Assembly (NCBI GenBank): GCA_002686955.1
Contig: NYZA01000193.1
Span: forward strand, 1 to 28,007
Source: Gemmatimonadota bacterium
GTDB lineage: Bacteria; GCA-2686955
DNA: 28,007 nt
Reading direction: 5' to 3'
Part shown: one piece after another, positions 791-15,598 of the stretch
Numbering within the stretch: the stretch's first letter is position 1
Layout: every line of letters starts with the position of its first letter
The notes under the pieces: generated by a model
Database searches by the model: none
The model's input: the letters and a program-made list of their open reading frames with translations, nothing else
What the model was told of the DNA's origin: nothing
Program-made: the position numbers and the translations under genes

Positions 791-1378
791 ATGAAGATAT
801 CGAGACTCGCCATCTTCGCCGCCTTCGCGTGGACACTCGGCGCGGGCCCATGGGCGCAGAGCGCCACGGCGGGCCAGCGCGGCTTCGTGGGCGTCAAGAA
901 ATGCAAGCTCTGCCACAAGAATGAAGACCAAGGCAACCAGTACGGCCAGTGGCAAGCGTCCGCCCACGCGAAGGCCTACGAGACTCTCGGTACCGAGAAG
1001 GCAAAGGAGGCCGCCGCCGGAATCGGCGTCGACGATCCGCAAGACTCCCCGAAATGTCTGCGCTGCCACGTCACCGCTTTCACCGTAAGGGAAAAGATCG
1101 CGACGGAGAAGATCACCCTCGAAGAGGGCGTATCGTGCGAATCGTGTCATGGAGCCGGCAAAGGCTATTTCAAGAAGAAGACCATGCAGGCGATCGCCGA
1201 CGGCAAGATCGATCGGGCCTCGGTGGGACTCACCAAGCCCGACGCCACGGTCTGCGCGCAGTGCCACAACGAAGACAATCCCTTCCATAAGGGCTTCGAT
1301 TTCGATGCGTCCTACGCGAAGATCGCCCATCCGCGACCGGCCGAAGGGGCGACCGCGGCAGACAAGACGACCCAGTAG
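791..1378 (+). CDS. Secreted tetrahaem cytochrome c (cytochrome c554-like)
   Basis: Predicted 195-residue exported electron-transfer protein. Residues 1-27 form a signal peptide (basic MKISR start, hydrophobic core, Ala-rich end near AQSATAG). Four haem-binding CxxCH motifs are visible: CKLCH at 38-42, CLRCH at 89-93, CESCH at 116-120 and CAQCH at 155-159. A WQASAHA segment just after haem 1 supplies a possible distal His ligand (His59), as in cytochrome c554-type multihaem proteins. The likely site is the periplasm. The physiological partner is not evident because no reductase or oxidase gene lies nearby. The ATG at 791 is supported by GGAG eight bases upstream. A small winged-helix gene follows after 20 bp and may be cotranscribed. 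Confidence 0.85.
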   Translation: MKISRLAIFAAFAWTLGAGPWAQSATAGQRGFVGVKKCKLCHKNEDQGNQYGQWQASAHAKAYETLGTEKAKEAAAGIGVDDPQDSPKCLRCHVTAFTVREKIATEKITLEEGVSCESCHGAGKGYFKKKTMQAIADGKIDRASVGLTKPDATVCAQCHNEDNPFHKGFDFDASYAKIAHPRPAEGATAADKTTQ

Positions 1379-1694: not shown

Positions 1695-3437
1695 ATGCGC
1701 ATGCTGCTTCCCGCGTTCGTCCTCCTCGCCCTGATCGCCGGTGAGGCGCTCCCGCTGAGCAATCCCGATCGAACGGTCACGATCTATCTGCACGGCTATG
1801 CGGGCGCCGGATTGGACCACGATGCTCCGATCGGAGAGGAGCTCTTCAGCGATGAAGTCGCGCCGCTGCAGGAGTTTCTCGACATCCCCTCCGGCGAGGA
1901 AGATCCCTTCGCGCCGAACCAGATCGCGGGCGTCGAATACATGGGGAATCGGCTGCCCGACCCCGAAACGAGCTACTTCGACTGGGACGACTACTGGGAG
2001 CTGGCGGAGCTCTTCCCGCCGGCGGGGGAAGGCGGAGTGCCCCTGCACGCCACGGTGGTCGCGAAGTTCGCGAGGCATGTACTGGAGCGCTCGGGAGCGG
2101 AGGGTATCAACATCGTCGGCGCCTCGTTCGGGGGCACCATCAGCCGCTACCTGATGGCGAACGATATAGACGGGCTCTGCTCCGAGGGGTTGGTGAGCCG
2201 CTGGGTCACGCTGGAGGGCGGTGTCAACGGGATCTGGATCGCGCAAAACCCCTTGTTTCAGCCGATTATCGAAAGACTCGGAGAGGACTCGATCGAGATC
2301 GAGCATATGTCCTACCGGTGGATGAGTCGCCATGTCGATCCCGGCCAGCCGAAGCCGAACTTGCCCTGGTCCCCGCCGAACTGGGGCACCTCGCCCTCCT
2401 ATCGCAACACGCTGATCCACCATCAGATCTCGACCGATTGGAGCCTCTACGGGGGAGTTATGCGCCACCTCAGCCACCTCGCCAACGACGGCGAAATCGC
2501 GGTCGGAGATGCGGCTCTCGCGGGTGTGGTCGAGGAGTACGCATGGCAGGGCCAGCAGCCGATGGTCCAGTATCTGCACGCGATGCACATTTCCGATGGG
2601 GATCTCGAGCCGGAGCATGTGGGGCTCTCCGATCACGAGGGGGCGTGGGAGACGTTGGCGGCGACGCTTTCGGGATCGAGGCGGGCCACCCTTCGGCTAA
2701 CCGAGGCGACCGCCCACGCGATCCACGAGCCGCCCTGGTTCGGCAAGGGCGAGCTGGTTTTCGAGACCGAGCTCTACTCCCGCTTCGCGGCCGATGAGTG
2801 GGGGATGCTTAGAGCGATCAACAACCGAAACCTGAGGGACGGGACCGCGCCGATGAGGCGCTTCAAGCAGGGTGAAACCAGGGCCCTCGACCTCGTGCTC
2901 TTCGATCAACTCGTTCTGCGCGAAGACCGGATGATTGATGCTTGGGTTCGAGCTCAGGAGCTCGATTGGAGCGATATGCGGAACTACCGCGTATTCGAAT
3001 CGATCCTTCACCCGCATCGGACTCTGGGCGAGGGATGGATCGAGCTCGATATCGAGCAGCCCGGCCCGATTCACTTCGCGGGTGACGAGGTCGATCTGCG
3101 TTTCGAGTTGGAGATGATCGAGCTCGATGTGATCGACCCCGCGGTCACGGGGTTCGAAGTGGTGCACGACGCCGGCGAATGGGTCGATCTCTGGTTCGTG
3201 AGCGACGAGCCCGCGATCTCCTCGGTCTTCGTTCGTGGCGGCGACGGCTCCCGGCGCGTGGTACACGGAGAGGAGGGCGCTCCGGCGACGGAGCATCGGA
3301 TCGTGGTCGATCGGCTTCGGGCGGGTGTGGCCTACTCCTTCACCCCCCGGGCCGAGGACGGCGCGCGCAATCTGGGCCGCGGCATGGTGTGGGAGAGGGA
3401 GGCTTGGCCGGGACGCTCATTCGATGTAGCCGAGTGA
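1695..3437 (+). CDS. Exported alpha/beta hydrolase (lipase/esterase-like) with C-terminal beta domain
   Basis: A 580-residue predicted extracytoplasmic serine hydrolase. Residues 1-20 are a signal peptide. The core shows the oxyanion-hole strand TIYLHGYAGAG (about 29-39) and the nucleophile elbow GASFGG at 142-147 with Ser144, as in lipases and palmitoyl-thioesterase-like enzymes. Acid and His partners cannot be fixed by eye; HAMHISDGDLEPEHVGLSDHE sits where a lid or catalytic His loop might be. The last about 110 residues resemble a fibronectin-III-like or other beta-sandwich module (SVFVRGGDGSRR and AGVAYSFTPRAEDGARN). Substrate is unknown. The ATG at 1695 has GGAG seven bases upstream, inside a hairpin. 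The 3' end overlaps the convergent phosphatase-superfamily gene by 21 bp. Confidence 0.7.
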   Translation: MRMLLPAFVLLALIAGEALPLSNPDRTVTIYLHGYAGAGLDHDAPIGEELFSDEVAPLQEFLDIPSGEEDPFAPNQIAGVEYMGNRLPDPETSYFDWDDYWELAELFPPAGEGGVPLHATVVAKFARHVLERSGAEGINIVGASFGGTISRYLMANDIDGLCSEGLVSRWVTLEGGVNGIWIAQNPLFQPIIERLGEDSIEIEHMSYRWMSRHVDPGQPKPNLPWSPPNWGTSPSYRNTLIHHQISTDWSLYGGVMRHLSHLANDGEIAVGDAALAGVVEEYAWQGQQPMVQYLHAMHISDGDLEPEHVGLSDHEGAWETLAATLSGSRRATLRLTEATAHAIHEPPWFGKGELVFETELYSRFAADEWGMLRAINNRNLRDGTAPMRRFKQGETRALDLVLFDQLVLREDRMIDAWVRAQELDWSDMRNYRVFESILHPHRTLGEGWIELDIEQPGPIHFAGDEVDLRFELEMIELDVIDPAVTGFEVVHDAGEWVDLWFVSDEPAISSVFVRGGDGSRRVVHGEEGAPATEHRIVVDRLRAGVAYSFTPRAEDGARNLGRGMVWEREAWPGRSFDVAE

Positions 3438-5588
3438 ACGAAGATCCCTGCGGATCTCTTCGTCCGATTCGTGGGAGGGAACCGGTGGAGGGCTTCCCGG
3501 CAGCTCCCAACTCTCGATCCTCGCCAATGGTGATTCGCGGATCAGGGGATCGATGAGGGAACCCTCCATATCGGCTCCGGCCGGCAGCCCGAGGAGTTGG
3601 AGGACGGTGGGTGCGAGGTCGAGGACGGAGCGGGCGGAACCGAGCCTGCGCGACCGGCCGCCGAACGAAGCCACCAGCACGCCATCCATCCGGTGGGATC
3701 CCGTGAAATCCCCCTCGATCGAGACGGCCGCGAAGCTCTTAACCGGCACCGCGCTGCCGTCGGGTAGCTTCGCCGAGCTTCCCCCGGGCAATCCCCGATC
3801 GAGCTCGACGCGCAGTTCCCCCTCGCCGACCTCGATCGATGAGAAGATCTCGGCACCGGCCGTGGTTTCGAGCGAGCGAAGCAGCTCGGCCGCTTCGGTG
3901 GGCGTGATCGATGGGCCGACCGCGACGCGGCGTGCGCGGGGGGTTCGGGTGCGCAGCGGGGTCGCGTCCCAGAGCCGGCTGCGGGTCTGGTCCACCTCTC
4001 CCCTTTGGTCGCGATGAAGCGAGCCGAGGCGCTCGAAGAGGGGATCCAGATTCGCCCTGCCCAGGTTGCCGAGGCGGACACCGGCTCCGTGATCCGAGAC
4101 GACCAGGAAGCGGGAATCGGGGGGGGCGAGGCGCACGATCTCGGCCAGCCAGAGGTCGACCATGCGGTAGTAGTCGAGCACGAGGTCGCCGTAGGGAGAG
4201 CCGCTCCGATCCGCGCCGAGCGTTCGGAAGGTCCAGCGCGATGAAGCCGGGCCGTGTGCGTCGACATGCTCCCGCCAGAAGCGATGCTGCGCGCCGTCGG
4301 TGCCGCGGAGATAGAGCGCGACCAGGTCCCAGTCGGCGCGCTCGGCGAGGTGATGGAGCAGGATGCGGGTGGCGAGCCAGTCGCGCTCGATCTCACGCCG
4401 AAGATGGAGCCAAGCTCCGTGGGCGCCGGGATGGCGCGCGGGGTCGGGCTCTTTGCCCGCGATCGCCACCAGCAGAGAGTCGGTGCGCGGGCGGTGGGCG
4501 GCGACGATCGAGTCGATTTCAGCGCTACGCGCCGCCGGGGCGACGCGCTGGTTCAGGGTGTCGAGCAGGAAGCGATCGGAAACGAGCAGGGAACCTTCTG
4601 GTGAGGTCGCGGGCCAGGTGACGTACCAGTTGACGATGAGGCAGCGAAGGCCGAAATCGCCTGCGATCTCCCAGAGGGGACGGGACTTGCGGTGACCGGC
4701 GTGGGCCGGAACGGCGCGCTCGCCCTCGAAGACGAAGCCGTCGATACCGTGCTGCCAGGGGCGTTTTCCGGTGGCGATGCTAGTCCAGACCGGAGGCGAG
4801 AGCGCGGGATGAATGCTGGCCAGCGGGACGGCGAGCTTCGAGTCGCGGTGCATCGCCGCGAGGGCGGGCGCGGCGCCGGCGTTCTCGATCGTGCGCAGGG
4901 TTTGCCAGCCGAGCCCGTCGATGCCGATCAGGACGATCGGGGGGCTGCGCGGTGGGGGCTCGGTCGGGGGTTGAGCGTGAGGGGAGCGGAGCTCGGTGAG
5001 CTTGCCGGTGGCCACGAGTGCGAGGGGCGCGGCGAGGGCCAGGAAGATGGCGGGGGCACCGAGCTCGACGCTCTTCTGGCGCGAAAGAGGGCGCAATAGC
5101 CGGGCCGCCGGGAACGCCAGGGCGAGAGATGCGAGGGCGGCGACCAGGAACAAGAGGGCGAGTGGGAGCGGGCGAAAGGGGGCGCCGCCCCAGGCGAGAA
5201 GTGAGGCGGAGCTCAGCCAGAGCAGTCCATGGATCAGGATCGATGCGGCGACGCCGACCGCCAGGTGAGCGCGGAGAAGCGATCGGGGCCGACGCGATCG
5301 GGCCCAGAGGAGGAGAATCGCCCCTCCCGGCAGAGAGACCCAGGCAGCGATCGTTGCGACGATGGTGATCTCGCCGATCGTCCCGCCGAGCACACGCAGA
5401 ATCGCGGGGCCCAGCAGCGGTGCCAAGCGCGACAACACGAGCTCGCGCGCGAGCCACGAACCGTGCCGCGCGACCGGCCATCCCGCGAGTGCGATCGAGA
5501 GGAGCGCGCCGAGCCAGAAGGCGGTCGCGTACTGTCTCGCGAGCACACCGAGGACGGAGCGTTTCTCAGGGGTAGTAGAGCAGCACAT
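3417..5588 (-). CDS. Membrane-anchored alkaline-phosphatase-superfamily phosphodiesterase/phosphatase
   Basis: About 723 residues. The N-terminal 195 residues hold roughly five hydrophobic segments (near 22-36, 60-98 as a pair, 106-134, 140-160 and 177-195). The catalytic domain follows. In numbering from the 5588 start, visible two-metal residues are Asp224 in GIDGLGW, nucleophile Thr269 in PPVWTSIATG, Asp431/His435 in RGTDGAQH, Asp499/His500 in SDHG and His632 in SHRMDG. This set matches type I phosphodiesterase/nucleotide pyrophosphatase-like AlkP proteins. The C-terminus RRDLRSLGYIE resembles tails common in sulfatase and AlkP proteins of uncultured bacteria. It is the last gene of the ATP-grasp cluster. 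The start is uncertain: ATG 5588 overlaps the upstream esterase gene by 23 bp, GTG 5546 is an alternative, and neither has a clear SD. Substrate is unknown. Confidence 0.8.
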   Translation of the reverse strand: MCCSTTPEKRSVLGVLARQYATAFWLGALLSIALAGWPVARHGSWLARELVLSRLAPLLGPAILRVLGGTIGEITIVATIAAWVSLPGGAILLLWARSRRPRSLLRAHLAVGVAASILIHGLLWLSSASLLAWGGAPFRPLPLALLFLVAALASLALAFPAARLLRPLSRQKSVELGAPAIFLALAAPLALVATGKLTELRSPHAQPPTEPPPRSPPIVLIGIDGLGWQTLRTIENAGAAPALAAMHRDSKLAVPLASIHPALSPPVWTSIATGKRPWQHGIDGFVFEGERAVPAHAGHRKSRPLWEIAGDFGLRCLIVNWYVTWPATSPEGSLLVSDRFLLDTLNQRVAPAARSAEIDSIVAAHRPRTDSLLVAIAGKEPDPARHPGAHGAWLHLRREIERDWLATRILLHHLAERADWDLVALYLRGTDGAQHRFWREHVDAHGPASSRWTFRTLGADRSGSPYGDLVLDYYRMVDLWLAEIVRLAPPDSRFLVVSDHGAGVRLGNLGRANLDPLFERLGSLHRDQRGEVDQTRSRLWDATPLRTRTPRARRVAVGPSITPTEAAELLRSLETTAGAEIFSSIEVGEGELRVELDRGLPGGSSAKLPDGSAVPVKSFAAVSIEGDFTGSHRMDGVLVASFGGRSRRLGSARSVLDLAPTVLQLLGLPAGADMEGSLIDPLIRESPLARIESWELPGSPPPVPSHESDEEIRRDLRSLGYIE

Positions 5589-6729
5589 CGCCGGGGAAGA
5601 GGTAGCGGAATCCGTCTTTGAGTCCGTTGCGCCAGCAGGTCCAGTTGTGGCCGTCGTACGATTCCCGGAAGTGGTGTTCGTAGCCCTCGCGCCGGAGCAC
5701 ATCGAGCAGACTGCGATTGAAGAAGATCAGCGACTCGAAGCGACCGCAGCTCAGATAGAGCTTCGCGGGCTCGCTTCGGGCTTGGCGGGAGAAGGAGGAT
5801 ACGAATCGCAGGATCGGCTCATCGTCCTCGAGGCGTTCCGGATCGACTTCATGGATGGTGCGGCGGCGCACGTCGGCGTGTATGAAGCTGCCGGATTGAC
5901 TGAACACCTTGCCGTAGGTCCGTGGGAATCGACTGAAGGTGTGCAGCGAGGTGAGCGCGCCGTAGCTCGCGCCCATGAGGCAGCGAGAGGCGGCATCGTC
6001 TCGCAGGGCGTAGCGCTCCTGCAGCAAGGGCAGGATTTCGTTCGTGAGGAAATCCCCCTGCCTGGGGTCGACCTTGTACTCGGTGAGCCGCCGGGGTGAA
6101 TCGGTCAGCGCTACGACGAAATCCTCGATCTCTCGATCGTGCATAAGGTTGTCGAGCACGGTCGCCAGTTTTGCGTAGCGCAGATAGTCCGAGCCGTCGT
6201 GAACGATGAGGAGCGGATAGGCGCGATCGGAGCGGTAGCGCGCCGGGAGGTAGACGCGCAGCACCCGCTCTTCCGCGAAAACCGCGCTGAGCATCCTCAC
6301 GGTTTCGATCGTGCCCCGCCTCACATCGGCACGCTCCCGGACGAAACCGGGACGGGTATAGCCGTGGGCGGTGACAACCGACTTCTCTCCGTAGGGGCAA
6401 TCGGAGCGTATCGGATTCAGGGGATCGACGAAGGTCCGAGTGCCGGTGTCGTCGCGGACCTCCAGACGGTATTCGATTCGCGCGGTGGGAGGCACCTGCA
6501 TCGGCAGGTAGTGCAGCGAAGTTCCGGCGACCCGAAGAAACTCCTGACGGCTCTCGAGCCCCATGATTTCGTGCCGCAGGTGCACCTCTTTCGCGCTTCC
6601 GTCGCGGTAGAGGAAGGTCACCCCCTCATTGTCCACGAGAGGCGCCGCATGCGTCGCGAGGAAGCGCTCTATCGTGGACTCCATCGGGTTCTCGGCGAGT
6701 GCGTCCTGGAGCTGGGCCAGTCTCAACAC
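5566..6729 (-). CDS. Enterochelin-esterase-like alpha/beta hydrolase (putative esterase, Fes/esterase D type)
   Basis: A 387-residue hydrolase. Residues about 30-105 look like the N-terminal early-set (CBM48-like) beta domain of Fes-type esterases (VTFLYRDGSAKEVHL to YRLEV..GTRTFVDPLNP). The catalytic domain runs from about 140: VYLPARY then PLLIVHDGSDY (about 172-182), the nucleophile elbow MGASYGA with Ser255, and catalytic His361 in GHNWTCWR, which matches the 'GHDWxxWR' signature of PF00756 esterases. No signal peptide, so it is probably cytoplasmic. The start is GTG 6729 within GTGTTGA, overlapping the stop of the S51-like gene, with GGAAGG ten bases upstream; this suggests translational coupling. 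In context it likely cleaves or transfers an ester or amide in a compound made by the ATP-grasp partner (inference). It is not clearly a siderophore esterase, because no siderophore genes are nearby. Confidence 0.85.
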   Translation of the reverse strand: MLRLAQLQDALAENPMESTIERFLATHAAPLVDNEGVTFLYRDGSAKEVHLRHEIMGLESRQEFLRVAGTSLHYLPMQVPPTARIEYRLEVRDDTGTRTFVDPLNPIRSDCPYGEKSVVTAHGYTRPGFVRERADVRRGTIETVRMLSAVFAEERVLRVYLPARYRSDRAYPLLIVHDGSDYLRYAKLATVLDNLMHDREIEDFVVALTDSPRRLTEYKVDPRQGDFLTNEILPLLQERYALRDDAASRCLMGASYGALTSLHTFSRFPRTYGKVFSQSGSFIHADVRRRTIHEVDPERLEDDEPILRFVSSFSRQARSEPAKLYLSCGRFESLIFFNRSLLDVLRREGYEHHFRESYDGHNWTCWRNGLKDGFRYLFPGDVLLYYP

Positions 6730-7877
6730 GGCCCACCTACCTTCCTCGATGCACCGGCGAAGACCGTCTCGCCCGGCTGAAGTCCTCGCTCATCACCTTC
6801 CGGAGTAAAACGAAGGGCGCTGTCGGGCGGCCCTAGGCTGATGCAACGATCTAGATCCCCTCCGTCGACCACCAGCACGGCTCCCTCGTCGAGGCCGATA
6901 CAGGCTCGCAGCGGAAAGCGCCGCGCCAGAAAGGCGAGATGATCCTGGCTCCCCTTCCGAATCCGCTCCGCATGCTGCGGCAGCACCAAAAGGCCGGGGA
7001 GCATGCCCACCCCGCGCCCGAAGAGCTCGAAAGTGTGGTGGCGGTCTTGATACTCGTCGTGGTAGACGACCACCCGTTCGCCCAGCGCCATCGCCCCGGC
7101 CGATCTGGCGACGATCGTTGCTCCGGCCGCGAGGCTTTCGCGCAGGATCGGGCCCAAGTCGAAGAAATGGAGCCGATTGAGCAGAACCGCGAGATGGCCT
7201 CCATAGAAAACGAGCGTCGCGGCGCTCTTGATGCGACGCGCCAGTAGTCGCCGTTTCGCCAGCCAGGTCTTGTTCTCCCGCAGCTTCGACGCGTCAAGAA
7301 AAGCCCTATCCAATCGCGCCAAGCGGTCGAGGAGCCACTGGTCCTGCTCCCGTATCCGATCGAATTCGAGGCTCAACTCCTCGGCGGCGAGTCCAAGTGC
7401 GTCGTCGACGCGCCCGCGATGCGGAGTCGCGCGATCGAGAAGCGCGGCGAAGGACCATTCCGGGAACCAACTCTGGACGGTCGCGAGCTGCGCCTTGAGC
7501 TGTCGGAGCGCCATCCGATTCGATCTGCGATAGAGTTCCATCGTCTTCTTGACGTCATCCTGTTTATCGCTATACAGCGTAGCTAGTTTTGGCTCTTTCT
7601 CGCAGAACTTCTCGAACTCCCAATAGAGGGAGAGATTCTGGACGTTGTGGTGTTGGTTGCCCGGCATTCTAGGGGGCACACCGATGCGATAGAGCGCCTC
7701 TTTGAGATGAGACTCAGCGAACTCCTCGGCCTGCCAGCCGGCAGTGATCAAGACCACCTTGCGGCTGCCCCGAACACTCCGGTCGCCATGGGTCGGCTCG
7801 AGGATCCTCCCTCTGGCCACCTGGAGTGGTCCCGGATCGCGACCGGTGCCGCCGTCGATGATGATCGCTCCCGTCAT
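6723..7877 (-). CDS. Peptidase S51/cyanophycinase-like protein (type 1 glutamine amidotransferase-like fold) with helical insert
   Basis: 384 residues. The first strand KVVLITAG (40-47) leads the fold. TLVFYGGHLAVLLNRL (221-236) corresponds to the GGN/Q-type motif. GATIVARSAGAMALGE (252-267) contains the nucleophile Ser259 in the SAGA elbow, and LPGLLVLPQHAERIRK (293-308) with His302 matches the DQHF..R catalytic-His region of cyanophycinases. ACIGLDEGAVLVVDG (325-339) matches the conserved GIDE segment. Family members are serine peptidases that cut beta-aspartyl or acyl-amino-acid bonds. Between about 75 and 220 is a highly charged, helical insert (EKFCEKEPK to LLARRIKSAA) not found in short S51 enzymes. 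It starts at ATG 7877 inside an ATGA overlap with the ATP-grasp stop. Likely paired with that ligase; the substrate is not known. Confidence 0.8.
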   Translation of the reverse strand: MTGAIIIDGGTGRDPGPLQVARGRILEPTHGDRSVRGSRKVVLITAGWQAEEFAESHLKEALYRIGVPPRMPGNQHHNVQNLSLYWEFEKFCEKEPKLATLYSDKQDDVKKTMELYRRSNRMALRQLKAQLATVQSWFPEWSFAALLDRATPHRGRVDDALGLAAEELSLEFDRIREQDQWLLDRLARLDRAFLDASKLRENKTWLAKRRLLARRIKSAATLVFYGGHLAVLLNRLHFFDLGPILRESLAAGATIVARSAGAMALGERVVVYHDEYQDRHHTFELFGRGVGMLPGLLVLPQHAERIRKGSQDHLAFLARRFPLRACIGLDEGAVLVVDGGDLDRCISLGPPDSALRFTPEGDERGLQPGETVFAGASRKVGGPC

Positions 7878-8932
7878 AATCCGACCTGGTCTTCGGTCGC
7901 CGGCTCGTAGAAGCGGTTCGCCTGCTCCAAAGCTCGCTGCCGTCGCGTCCGCTCGTCGCCTTCGAGCTGAGCGATCGCGCTGAAGGCGTTCAGATCGGGC
8001 AGAAAAAGGGAAGAGACCGGAAAGCGGGCCAGCTCGGCGGCGCGGCGCGTGAGCGCTCCCACATAGTCCTCGAAGAAGTTCTCACCTAGCTCTCCCGGGC
8101 GACCATCCGGAACCGGGTTGTTGAAATCGATCGCCCAGGCATCGCCTTTGTCATCGATCACGAACTCGACCGAGTTCATTTCGTAGCCGAATGCCCGGTT
8201 GATGATGCGACAGGAATCGACGACCTCACGCCCCTGGTCCACCGTGAGGAAGCTCTTGTCGGGCAAATACTCCGAGCGGTCGCCGGGGCGGAAGATATAC
8301 TTCATCACGATGATCTCGCGGCCCACGCAGAGGCAGCGAAGATGCCACTCGTGGGGGCTGCTGACGGCCGCCTGAACCGTCATCGAGCGGTCCCCCGAAG
8401 CATCGTACGCCTCGAGCAACTCCTGCATATCGTTGCAAAGCGAAACACCTTCCGCCCCACGCCCCTCCGCGGGCTTGAGGTAGCAGGGAAAACCGACCTT
8501 GGACATCATCTTGTCCCACTGGAAATGCCTGTGGAATTTGAAGTCTCCCCGCTCGAGGCGCGGCGAAGAATGGGGCGGCAGGATAAAGGTCGCGGGCACG
8601 CGCACGCCGAGCCGGCGGACGATGGAGTAGCCGACATCTTTGTGGGCAATGAAGTAGTGGAAAGAGAGCGGATTGTTGATCACGTGGACGCCGCGGAAGG
8701 CATGGCTCATCAGCACGCCCCTGGCGATTTCGAGCCGATGGGAGGCGCGATCGATGACCAGGGAGTACCGGCTCTCGTGATCGATGTCGAATTCGGTGAT
8801 CTTCATGTGCTTCGCCACGAGCTCGATCTCGCGGCCGCCCGCGCTGAAGACTCTCGGCGACGCATTGATCGATTCGAGAAGGGCATCGCCCAGTGCCTCG
8901 GTGAAGTAGAGGAGTCCGACTTGGTACTGCAT
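7874..8932 (-). CDS. ATP-grasp carboxylate-amine/thiol ligase (RimK/glutathione-synthetase-like)
   Basis: 352-residue predicted ligase of the ATP-grasp superfamily, which activates a carboxylate as acyl-phosphate and joins it to an amine or thiol. An N-terminal Rossmann-like preATP domain covers about 1-110 (INNPLSFHYFIAHKDVGYSIV, where HKD precedes the helix typical of this fold). The ATP-binding Lys153 lies in CYLKPAEGRGAEGVSL (150-165), a glycine-rich loop. Metal-binding residues are visible as Glu256 (SVEFVID) and Asp269/Asn271 in AIDFNNP. It ends in an ATGA overlap with the S51-like gene, which implies tight coupling. The start at ATG 8932 has no strong SD, and the divergent ABC exporter begins 23 bp away. 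The product is unknown; it is more like a dipeptide or amide ligase than a canonical primary-metabolism enzyme. Confidence 0.85.
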   Translation of the reverse strand: MQYQVGLLYFTEALGDALLESINASPRVFSAGGREIELVAKHMKITEFDIDHESRYSLVIDRASHRLEIARGVLMSHAFRGVHVINNPLSFHYFIAHKDVGYSIVRRLGVRVPATFILPPHSSPRLERGDFKFHRHFQWDKMMSKVGFPCYLKPAEGRGAEGVSLCNDMQELLEAYDASGDRSMTVQAAVSSPHEWHLRCLCVGREIIVMKYIFRPGDRSEYLPDKSFLTVDQGREVVDSCRIINRAFGYEMNSVEFVIDDKGDAWAIDFNNPVPDGRPGELGENFFEDYVGALTRRAAELARFPVSSLFLPDLNAFSAIAQLEGDERTRRQRALEQANRFYEPATEDQVGL

Positions 8933-8955: not shown

Positions 8956-10752
8956 GTGATTCGTACGCCCATTGTTGCGAGAATGCCGGCCCGTTTCAAA
9001 CTCCCAAGCGGTTCGTTCGGCCTGATTCGGCGTTTTTTGCCCTTTATGCGGCCGGACCGGTGGACTCTGGCGGGGGCGGCGGCGCTGATGATGGTCGAAG
9101 TGCCCTTCTCGGTGGTTCGTCCCTTGATCGCCAGGCATGTGCTCGACGTGGCGTTGCCCGCGAGCGACATGTCCCTTGTCGTGCAGCTCTGCGTGCTGAT
9201 CGCGGCCGTCTCGATCATCAACCAGCTCCTCGCCTGCGCGATTGGCGTCGTGATCGCCCGATTCCACGCCCGCTTCAGCTTTCGCGTGCGTACCCGGATC
9301 TTCCGGCATTTCCAGGCTCTTCCTCTGGGCTGGTATTCCGACAAAGACACGGGGTATCTGATGTCGCGGCAGACCGACGACGTCGACAACCTCGACGGCA
9401 TTCTCGCCGACACTTTCATCCGCGCGGCGATGGACCTCGTGCGGGCGCTCTTCTTTGTGGTCATGCTCCTGGTGCTCGATCCCTATCTCGCCGGCACCGC
9501 GTTTGCGTTCGTGACGACGATTTTCGGTATTCAAGCCCTCTTCTCGAGACGACTTCGGCGGGCCAGCCGCGAAACACGCGAAACATGGTCGCTCAGCAGC
9601 GCCTCTCTGCACGACGCACTCAGCGGTCATGCTCTGATCCGCGCCTCCGCGTCGGAAGGGGCCGAGAGGAGCCGCTTTTCCACTCGGCTCGCGGAGCACC
9701 TGCGCGCCCGATTTCGGCGAGACGTTCTCGGGATGGTGGCGGGGCGGATCTCCGGGGTCGTCGCCGGGATCGGGATGGGACTGATCCTCTTCATCGGGAG
9801 CTGGCGAATCCTCTCGGGGGAGTTCACGATCGGGGGCCTATTCGCCTTCTTCCTCTATCTGGGCAACCTCTTCGGGACGACCTATGCACTCGCGGGTCTC
9901 AATCCGGTCATCCAGCGGGCTCTGGCTTCCGCCGAGCGGATCGCTCAGCTGCTCGATACCATCCCCGCGATCAAGAGCCCGGTGGGCGCGCTGAAGCGGG
10001 TCATCTCCGAAGGGGACGTCGCTTTCGAGTCGGTCGAGTTCGCCTATCGCAAAGGGGAACCCGTGCTGCGGGGAGTTTCGCTACGGGCCAGGGCCGGATC
10101 GACGGTGGCTCTGGTGGGGCCGAGCGGTGCCGGAAAGTCCACTTTCGCGAGCATGGTGCCACGCTTCTACGATGTCGACAGCGGCAGGGTGTCGATCGAT
10201 GGCGTCGATGTTCGCCAGATGCGGCTGCCCGATCTCCGTGGTCAGATCGGCGTCGTTCCTCAGGAGATCTTCCTCTTCAACAGAAGCGTCCGCGACAACC
10301 TCACGGTCGGTCTCGGACGGCGCAAGATCGATATGGAGACGATCGAAGCGGCAGCTGAAGCGGCCCACGCACACGCCTTCGTCTCGGCTCTACCGCAAGG
10401 CTACGACACTCTGATCGGCGAGCGGGGTGTGCGCCTGAGTGGAGGCGAGAAACAGCGACTCGCGATCGCCAGGGAGCTGCTGCGAAACCCGCGGGTGCTC
10501 ATCCTCGATGAAGCCACATCGAGCCTCGATTCCACCTCGGAGCGTTTGGTGCAAGATGCCGTGAACCAGCTGCGTCGCAACCGCACATCGATCGTCATCG
10601 CGCATCGCTTGTCCACCGTGCTCTCCGCCGATCAGATTCTGGTCTTCGACGCCGGTGAGATCGTCGCTCGAGGCACGCACGATACACTCCTGGCGAGCTG
10701 TGAGCTATATCGCAAGCTGTACGAGACGCAATTCGATACAAATGCCGCATAA
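8956..10752 (+). CDS. ABC exporter, fused membrane and ATPase domains (MsbA/type IV family)
   Basis: 598-residue half-transporter. The N-terminal part (to about 330) has the usual six membrane helices of an exporter, with helices near 36-56, 75-100, 160-190 and 265-312 visible. The ATPase domain follows: Walker A GPSGAGKST (388-396), Q-loop Gln436, signature LSGGE (494-498), Walker B VLILDE (514-519) and H-loop His550. It functions as a homodimer or heterodimer in the inner membrane; the substrate is not deducible. GTG 8956 is chosen because AAGGGAG precedes it by 5-6 bases (ATG 8983 is the alternative). It runs divergently from the ATP-grasp cluster, from which it is separated by 23 bp, and overlaps trmB by 11 bp. 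Export of the cluster product is an inference from position only. Confidence 0.9.
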   Translation: MIRTPIVARMPARFKLPSGSFGLIRRFLPFMRPDRWTLAGAAALMMVEVPFSVVRPLIARHVLDVALPASDMSLVVQLCVLIAAVSIINQLLACAIGVVIARFHARFSFRVRTRIFRHFQALPLGWYSDKDTGYLMSRQTDDVDNLDGILADTFIRAAMDLVRALFFVVMLLVLDPYLAGTAFAFVTTIFGIQALFSRRLRRASRETRETWSLSSASLHDALSGHALIRASASEGAERSRFSTRLAEHLRARFRRDVLGMVAGRISGVVAGIGMGLILFIGSWRILSGEFTIGGLFAFFLYLGNLFGTTYALAGLNPVIQRALASAERIAQLLDTIPAIKSPVGALKRVISEGDVAFESVEFAYRKGEPVLRGVSLRARAGSTVALVGPSGAGKSTFASMVPRFYDVDSGRVSIDGVDVRQMRLPDLRGQIGVVPQEIFLFNRSVRDNLTVGLGRRKIDMETIEAAAEAAHAHAFVSALPQGYDTLIGERGVRLSGGEKQRLAIARELLRNPRVLILDEATSSLDSTSERLVQDAVNQLRRNRTSIVIAHRLSTVLSADQILVFDAGEIVARGTHDTLLASCELYRKLYETQFDTNAA

Positions 10753-14513: not shown

Positions 14514-15110
14514 TTAGCCTCTCAACCTCTTCAGGGCGGCGCGCACGATGGCATCGGTCGAAGGTGAATCGCCCGGGTCCTCACGAAGGATCGCGAGGGT
14601 GTGCGCGATCTTGGAGCGATCGTAGCCCAGCGTGATCAAAGCCGTGGCCGCGTCGTCCCACGGCGCGGGCGGGGCGTTCGCTGCCGATTTAGGGAGAGCA
14701 CGATTCGGACCGACATAGCGGTCTCGCAGCTCCAAGAGCATACGCTCGGCCAGCTTCCGCCCAACACCGGGGGCGCGCTGAAGCGTGCCGTGGTCGCCCG
14801 TCGCGATCGATCGGGCAAAGCTCAATGGGTCGATCGCTCCCACGATCGAGAGTGCCAGGCGCGGTCCGATGCCGGAGATACCGAGCAGAGTCTTGAAGAG
14901 CGTTCGCTCCTCCTCGTGCGCGAAGCCGTAAAGCTCGAGGGCGTCCTCCCGAACGTGCAGATGGGTGGGTACCCGGATCTCTTCACCAGCTCCGCGCCCA
15001 ATCAACGCGCTGGTGGAGGGGACTACGATTCCCAGCTCCAACCCGCCGACCTCTACGATCACGCGCCCCTCATAGGAACGAACCAGTCGCCCGCGAACCG
15101 CTTCGATCAT
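14514..15110 (-). CDS. ruvA: Holliday junction DNA helicase subunit RuvA
   Basis: 198-residue junction-binding subunit. The N-terminal OB-fold reads [38 protein letters not shown] is the classic end of domain I. Helix-hairpin-helix motifs follow in [13 protein letters not shown] and [14 protein letters not shown]; a short linker of Ala/Pro leads to domain III, which contacts RuvB (ALITLGY..SKI). ATG 15110 starts inside an ATGA overlap with ruvC, which also excludes the longer frame reaching 15530. RuvA tetramers load RuvB on the junction; gene order C-A-B is standard. Confidence 0.95.
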
Positions 15111-15598
15111 CCCGCCGAGTCCGCCCGGTTGATATGGCACACCGCCACCGCCAAGGCATCGGAGGCATCCTCGGGGACCGATCCCTCGATACCGGAGACC
15201 AGCATGCGAACGAGCGATGCCACCTGCTCCTTGCTCCCTCCTCCCCCCGCGCCGACGGCCCGCTTGATCTCGGCGGGGCTGTACTCGCCGACACCGATCC
15301 CGGCGAGCGCAAAGGCTAGAAGCGCCGCGGCCCGCGCGTGGCCCAGCAGCAGCGCGGAGCGCATGTTGCGACCCACGAAGACCCTCTCGATCGCTGCTCC
15401 CGTTACGGTGTAACGCTCGAGGACATCTCGAACTCCCCGGTGAATCGTGGCCAGACGAACCGACATGGCATCGGATGGAGAAGATCGCACGACGCCGAAA
15501 TGGAGCGCGCGCATCTGTCGAGCCTCGCATTCCACGATGCCGATGCCGGTCCGAGCGAGGCCTGGATCGATCCCCATGACGATGCTCTTGGTTCGCAC
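15107..15598 (-). CDS. ruvC: Crossover junction endodeoxyribonuclease RuvC
   Basis: 163-residue resolvase that cuts Holliday junctions. The acidic active site is visible: Asp11 in MGIDPGLARTG, Glu70 in AIERVFVGRN, and Asp138-type and Asp141-type residues in PEDASDALAVAVCH. The EYSPAEIKRAV segment, then a run of Gly before SKEQV, is typical. The start is GTG 15598, three bases past the yebC stop; ATG 15577 is an alternative that would give a slightly shorter N-terminus. It overlaps ruvA by ATGA. No missing catalytic residue. Confidence 0.93.
   Translation of the reverse strand: MRTKSIVMGIDPGLARTGIGIVECEARQMRALHFGVVRSSPSDAMSVRLATIHRGVRDVLERYTVTGAAIERVFVGRNMRSALLLGHARAAALLAFALAGIGVGEYSPAEIKRAVGAGGGGSKEQVASLVRMLVSGIEGSVPEDASDALAVAVCHINRADSAG

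Follow-up and report, generated by a model that had tools for sequence, protein, structure and literature searches.

An ATP-grasp ligase, an S51-like protein and a Fes-like esterase form a recurring bacterial gene unit that may make and edit a peptide-like metabolite

The window analysed here, 28,007 nucleotides long, is an entire contig (C193) of a Gemmatimonadota assembly of 4.28 Mb with an estimated completeness of about 84.5%. It carries a cluster of four minus-strand genes (8932-3417) in the order ATPG-S51-EST-PDE (Table 1). ATPG and S51 overlap in ATGA at 7877-7874, S51 and EST overlap in GTGTTGA at 6729-6723, and the ATG of PDE at 5588 falls inside EST, whose TGA stop codon occupies positions 5568-5566. 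The four-gene cluster and these overlaps, as described by an earlier sequence-only reading, are therefore confirmed. The matches of S51, EST and PDE to their Pfam families all exceed the Pfam cut-offs. Elsewhere in the window, an ORF of 338 aa (14514-15598) encodes RuvA, and its RuvA domains start only at residue 141; the true start is probably located further in, because of this position of the domains and because a second ORF (15107-15598), which may be RuvC, overlaps it.

Table 1. Genes of the cluster and its flanks in the window, with comparison to the related genome
Feature	Position	Strand	Size	Family evidence or remark	Identity to relative (aa)	dN/dS
ATP-grasp ligase (ATPG)	7874..8932	-	352 aa	RimK family TIGR00768 4e-9, below cut-off; RimK/ArgX fold (model)	68%	~0.18
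S51-peptidase-like protein (S51)	6723..7877	-	384 aa	PF03575 6.5e-8	64%	~0.17
Fes-like esterase (EST)	5566..6729	-	387 aa	Esterase PF00756 5e-21	66%	~0.18
Membrane AlkP-superfamily type I phosphodiesterase (PDE)	3417..5588	-	723 aa from ATG 5588	Phosphodiest PF01663 2.6e-26	~50-51%	~0.25
Divergent ABC exporter, MsbA-like	8956..10752	+		Family matches; excluded from cluster parts		
Convergent alpha/beta-hydrolase-like protein	1695..3437	+	580 aa	Syntenic neighbour, kept beside cluster in relative		
Multihaem c-type cytochrome, c554-like	791-1378			Kept beside cluster in relative		

The cluster was compared with that of G001, the sole other genome of the window's GTDB phylum in the collection searched (83% complete), which presents the identical four-gene order and, after it, the convergent alpha/beta-hydrolase and cytochrome genes seen in the window. 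Considering the dN/dS values of 0.17-0.25 against this relative, all four ORFs are genuine protein-coding genes under purifying selection. PDE, found at the same place in both genomes, is common beside the cluster only to the window and this one relative, and is a family-level addition and not part of the core. The real core consists of the first three genes: of the four-gene set proposed earlier, ATPG, S51 and EST remain as a conserved unit, without PDE. The divergent ABC exporter does not adjoin the cluster in the relative and was dropped as a cluster part for this reason.

Two starts were considered for PDE, ATG 5588 and ATG 5702, the latter giving a protein of 761 aa. The former seems the more likely, because the long form resembles the relative only from residue 37 onwards and because the PDE of the relative starts at GTG 13344, overlapping its own EST stop by 4 bases. 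The protein exhibits about four hydrophobic stretches by hydropathy, followed by the metal motifs IGIDG, WTS and SDHG. In another genome (G349, L034:6642-9605), an S51 homolog without esterase has an AlkP/type I phosphodiesterase-like gene 16 bases behind it, an arrangement reminiscent of the window PDE.

All Pfam and NCBIfam scores of ATPG are below the cut-offs, the match to the RimK family TIGR00768 reaching 36.2 bits for a cut-off of 143.4. The predicted structure has a pLDDT of 82 and aligns with RimK (5zct) with a Z-score of 21.4 and an rmsd of 2.9 over 265 residues, and with ArgX (3vpb) with a Z-score of 20.5. D-Ala ligases and the kinase ITPK1 (Z 19) come close behind, and ArgX/LysX and the graspetide macrocyclases MdnC and PsnB are also found among the structural neighbours. 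The confident model aligned with known ATP-grasp ligases predicts that ATPG has an ATP-grasp fold, namely the RimK/ArgX, peptide-ligase type of fold, with an identity of about 16% to the RimK, ArgX and LysX ligases. Residues K98, K153, R199, N253, E256, D269 and N272 are conserved, and the conserved lysines and acidic residues are retained across 15 homologs.

The S51 protein scores 32.9 bits against PF03575, above the gathering score of 23.9, which places it in peptidase family S51. Its score against the cyanophycinase model TIGR02069 (4e-7, 29.6 bits) is below the cut-off of 126.6, and the protein carries a long insert that is probably helical. S51 peptidases employ a Ser-His-Glu or Ser-His-Asp triad (PMC9239234). 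From the motif columns of the homologs, the likely triad consists of Ser259 (ARSAGAM), His302 (LPQHAER) and Glu331 or Asp330. The Ser and His are kept in the window protein and in most unfused homologs; the homolog at L042 is without the His. In the relative, the Ser is replaced by Ala (GCG for TCG), a difference of one base on a contig of about 2.4-fold coverage, and the replacement was not counted as a triad loss. The triad Ser and His are both missing from all four S51-EST fusion proteins, so that the S51 portion of these proteins probably serves a non-hydrolytic role and may be a recognition module. The structure prediction of S51, made from two sequences only, was poor (pLDDT 49).

The N-terminal part of EST is weakly Enterochelin_N-like and is followed by an alpha/beta hydrolase. 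The residues Ser251, Glu328 and His357, in the numbering of alignment A3, from which the first 4 codons are missing (Ser255, Glu332 and His361 counted from the GTG start), are invariant across 14 homologs. Matches in the PDB include ferulic acid esterases and Fes (2b20). Some relatives of EST are CE1 enzymes whose N-terminal domains are of the glucan-binding type; the N-terminal part of EST is a better match to Enterochelin_N than to the glucan-binding domain. Against the enterochelin esterase equivalog of NCBIfam (PRK10439), EST scores 95.9 bits, below the cut-off of 222. In the tree, the esterases of the clusters group by themselves (support 96/81), apart from the siderophore Fes and from the Fes-like paralogs of the same genomes. 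Because of this separate clade, the substrate specificity of Fes is not transferable to EST. Most true Fes relatives that were looked at have TonB receptor or NRPS genes as neighbours, and none is found among the annotated neighbours of the window cluster. In plasmid searches, the esterase matched mostly siderophore-type Fes, and neither ATPG nor S51 gave a match.

A search of 386 genomes with an S51 profile gave 16 carriers, including two members of the window's family, and of four further phylum searches, three gave eight more carriers. Outside the window's family, the S51-like gene is present at 22 loci in 15 GTDB families; these were mapped with profiles built here, gene calls came from a simple caller and profile matches, and, the genomes being incomplete, absences are provisional. 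A matching Fes-like esterase is adjacent or fused to S51 at 20 of these 22 loci (13 GTDB families), and at four of them S51 and EST are fused into one protein of 798-855 aa. The core genes are thus kept together in other genomes, where their dispersal had been named as the observation that would speak against the cluster.

Among the 20 EST-linked loci, 13 carry the window's ATP-grasp family within the same stretch, 18 have RizA-like L-amino-acid ligases (LAL), one to three per locus, identified by a full-length profile match to RizA 4wd3 (E 1e-43), 12 carry a second short esterase (EST2) and eight have genes for glycogen synthase, branching enzyme or both. LAL-S51-EST-ATPG-EST2 is the most frequent order, that of the window being ATPG-S51-EST. 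In the fullest locus (L077:725-12039), GlgB-LAL-LAL lie on one strand and GlgA-LAL-S51-EST-ATPG-EST2 divergently on the other; LAL overlaps or abuts GlgA or GlgB. The pairwise distances of S51, EST and ATPG are correlated, with r 0.89-0.93 and the lowest attainable Mantel p (1/2001); this correlation reflects species history at least in part and may reflect nothing else. Neither a RizA-like ligase at E 1e-20 nor a circularly permuted ATP-grasp at E 1e-15 was found in the window's genome or in its relative, both incomplete as given above. The trio S51-EST-ATPG without RizA-like ligases is also present at L078. As the unit elsewhere usually has RizA-like ligases and EST2 with it, and in some cases glycogen genes, the window cluster is a reduced form of the fuller RizA-containing clusters.

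Additionally, a DNA-pattern scan for the ligase detected relatives in one Sericytochromatia MAG, two Wallbacteria MAGs and one Acidobacteria MAG. In the Sericytochromatia and Wallbacteria, S51 homologs are located on contigs separate from the ligase, the Sericytochromatia contig ending at the S51 gene, and the Wallbacteria ligase gene adjoins one for a circularly permuted ATP-grasp protein. Searches of the Wallbacteria and Acidobacteria genomes gave no esterase above E 1e-20, and the Acidobacteria genome has the ligase without S51 or esterase, in an operon (L009:8658-13483) of a GCS2-type ligase, the ATPG relative, a circularly permuted ATP-grasp and an M29-like peptidase. The parts of the cluster are therefore separable, S51 being apart from the ligase in Wallbacteria, where no such esterase was found, and the ligase occurring alone of the three in one Acidobacteria genome. 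Two other surroundings of S51 homologs were recorded: directly behind a PHO4 phosphate transporter gene (G248, L033:7976-10741), and, in Wallbacteria (L056:8925-13370), divergent from two SPFH/Band 7 genes.

Our best reading, to which we give an even chance, is that ATPG and a coupled S51-EST unit make and edit a peptide-like metabolite. The constant pairing and the fusion of S51 and EST suggest that the two act together, and the ligases neighbouring them suggest that their substrate arises through ATP-dependent formation of an amide bond. ATPG would use ATP to activate a carboxylate and then couple it to an amine; as a counter-point to this ligase role, ATP-grasp folds also serve kinases, such as the ITPK1 listed above. 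RizA-type ligases join free amino acids (PMC6920838), and in the fuller clusters they would form the preceding dipeptide bond or bonds. S51 and EST, as a complex, would trim, transfer or recycle the product: S51 would bind a terminal (iso)peptide bond and cleave it where the triad is intact, and EST would cleave or transfer an ester or amide. Where the two are fused, the triad-less S51 is probably only a recognition module for EST. PDE, as a family-specific addition, might conceivably take part in export or in removing a phosphate-linked carrier. We infer complex formation, the order of the reactions and the class of product; the best fit is a peptide-like metabolite or else a polymer carrying a peptidyl group, and the glycogen genes point to the second of these in some lineages.

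The sequence-only reading, in which the set makes and processes an amide- or ester-linked metabolite or storage polymer, gains from the peptide-ligase fold predicted for ATPG, the product class staying at the strength just given. Its view of S51 as a peptidase that cuts may not hold, since the triad is missing from the four fused proteins. Its Fes-type esterase holds for the hydrolase family and not for the siderophore Fes clade. The structure prediction that it had proposed as a check gave a confident model for ATPG and a poor one for S51.

Both non-ligase enzymes of the core belong to hydrolase families, and S51-EST could instead degrade an external peptide conjugate or a siderophore-like ester, the ligases only re-using the fragments. 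Such salvage or detoxification has parallels, since S51 peptidases are able to confer resistance to peptidyl-nucleotide antibiotics (PMC9239234) and cyanophycinase and isoaspartyl dipeptidase form scavenging clusters without CphA (PMC10206079). Nevertheless, up to four ATP-consuming ligases per cluster exceed the needs of salvage, and the TonB receptor and NRPS genes of most true Fes relatives are missing from the annotated neighbours in the window, which leaves this explanation unlikely. The modification of a polymer, e.g. an alpha-glucan such as glycogen, to which EST would attach, or from which it would remove, an aminoacyl or peptidyl group built by the ligases, is distinctly unlikely. The glycogen genes of eight loci, the contact of LAL with GlgA or GlgB, the arrangement of the fullest locus and the CE1 relatives of EST agree with it; however, glycogen genes were seen neither beside the window cluster nor in 12 of the 20 loci, those loci that have them are confined to few lineages, and the EST N-terminal part is closer to Enterochelin_N. 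A more specific cross-phylum system, in which a triad-less peptidase fold is the recognition part of an esterase and up to four ATP-grasp ligases build a glycogen-linked peptide-like group, would be a long shot.

The presence of ArgX/LysX, MdnC and PsnB among the structural neighbours of ATPG is also what would be expected if ATPG acted on the ribosomal precursor of a graspetide (RiPP) or on a LysW-like carrier. The cluster leaves no space for a precursor gene, as its genes overlap and the divergent ORF is 24 bases from the ATPG start, and none was found there, a precursor elsewhere being possible; moreover, the usual partners, the RizA-like ligases, join free amino acids (PMC6920838). We consider this modification very unlikely. 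The window and its relative alone would be insufficient to rule out a chance operon of unrelated housekeeping enzymes, but adjacency or fusion at 20 of the 22 loci from other families makes such an operon hardly credible. A defence role was rejected, as no PADLOC match was obtained.

The ligase, peptidase-like protein and esterase make up a defined recurring set, kept together by evolution and sometimes fused, in distant and mostly uncultured bacteria. If the reading of ATPG with a coupled S51-EST unit is true, it adds a peptide-like metabolite or a modification of a polymer to what poorly known bacterial phyla produce, and gives an example of how a peptidase can come to serve an esterase as its recognition module.

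Among known systems, cyanophycin synthetase and cyanophycinase (CphA, CphB), whose genes are often clustered (PMC10206079), likewise pair an ATP-grasp ligase with an S51-family protein. In contrast to the CphA type, of about 870 aa in the model with ATP-grasp and Mur-ligase domains, ATPG is a short protein, and no cyanophycin-synthetase model is among its 19 NCBIfam matches; S51 differs from CphB by its score below the TIGR02069 cut-off and its long insert, and the constant partner of the unit is an esterase. The view that the cluster is not classic cyanophycin is thus borne out. The L-amino-acid ligases (RizA, BL00235, BacD) resemble the RizA-like ligases that accompany the unit at most EST-linked loci, but neither the window's genome nor its relative yielded one, and ATPG belongs to a different ATP-grasp family. 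RimK, ArgX and LysX are the nearest folds to ATPG (Z 20-21) and share a partial RimK-family match with it; the identity is low, the score is below the family cut-off, and ATPG has no known ribosomal or LysW partner. EST shares with Fes and the CE1 ferulic acid esterases the hydrolase family, the Ser-Glu-His pattern and the weak Enterochelin_N-like N-terminus; unlike Fes, it stands in a separate clade and has S51 and ATP-grasp genes as partners in place of NRPS and TonB receptors. Iyer et al. (2009) reportedly described ATP-grasp/GCS2 peptide-ligase neighbourhoods, in which clusters of several ligases and a peptidase are predicted to produce small peptides. The Acidobacteria operon is of this kind; the S51-EST pairing and fusion with RizA-like ligases differs from it. 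Pfam and NCBIfam hold no model specific to the cluster parts, the scores being below the equivalog cut-offs, and the open papers searched in full text do not describe the gene combination, a mention in the 2009 catalogue of amidoligase neighbourhoods being possible; in agreement with the earlier statement, these sources yielded no named system that has such partners. The cluster belongs with the known clusters of ATP-grasp ligases and hydrolases, and its particular combination of genes appears to be new.
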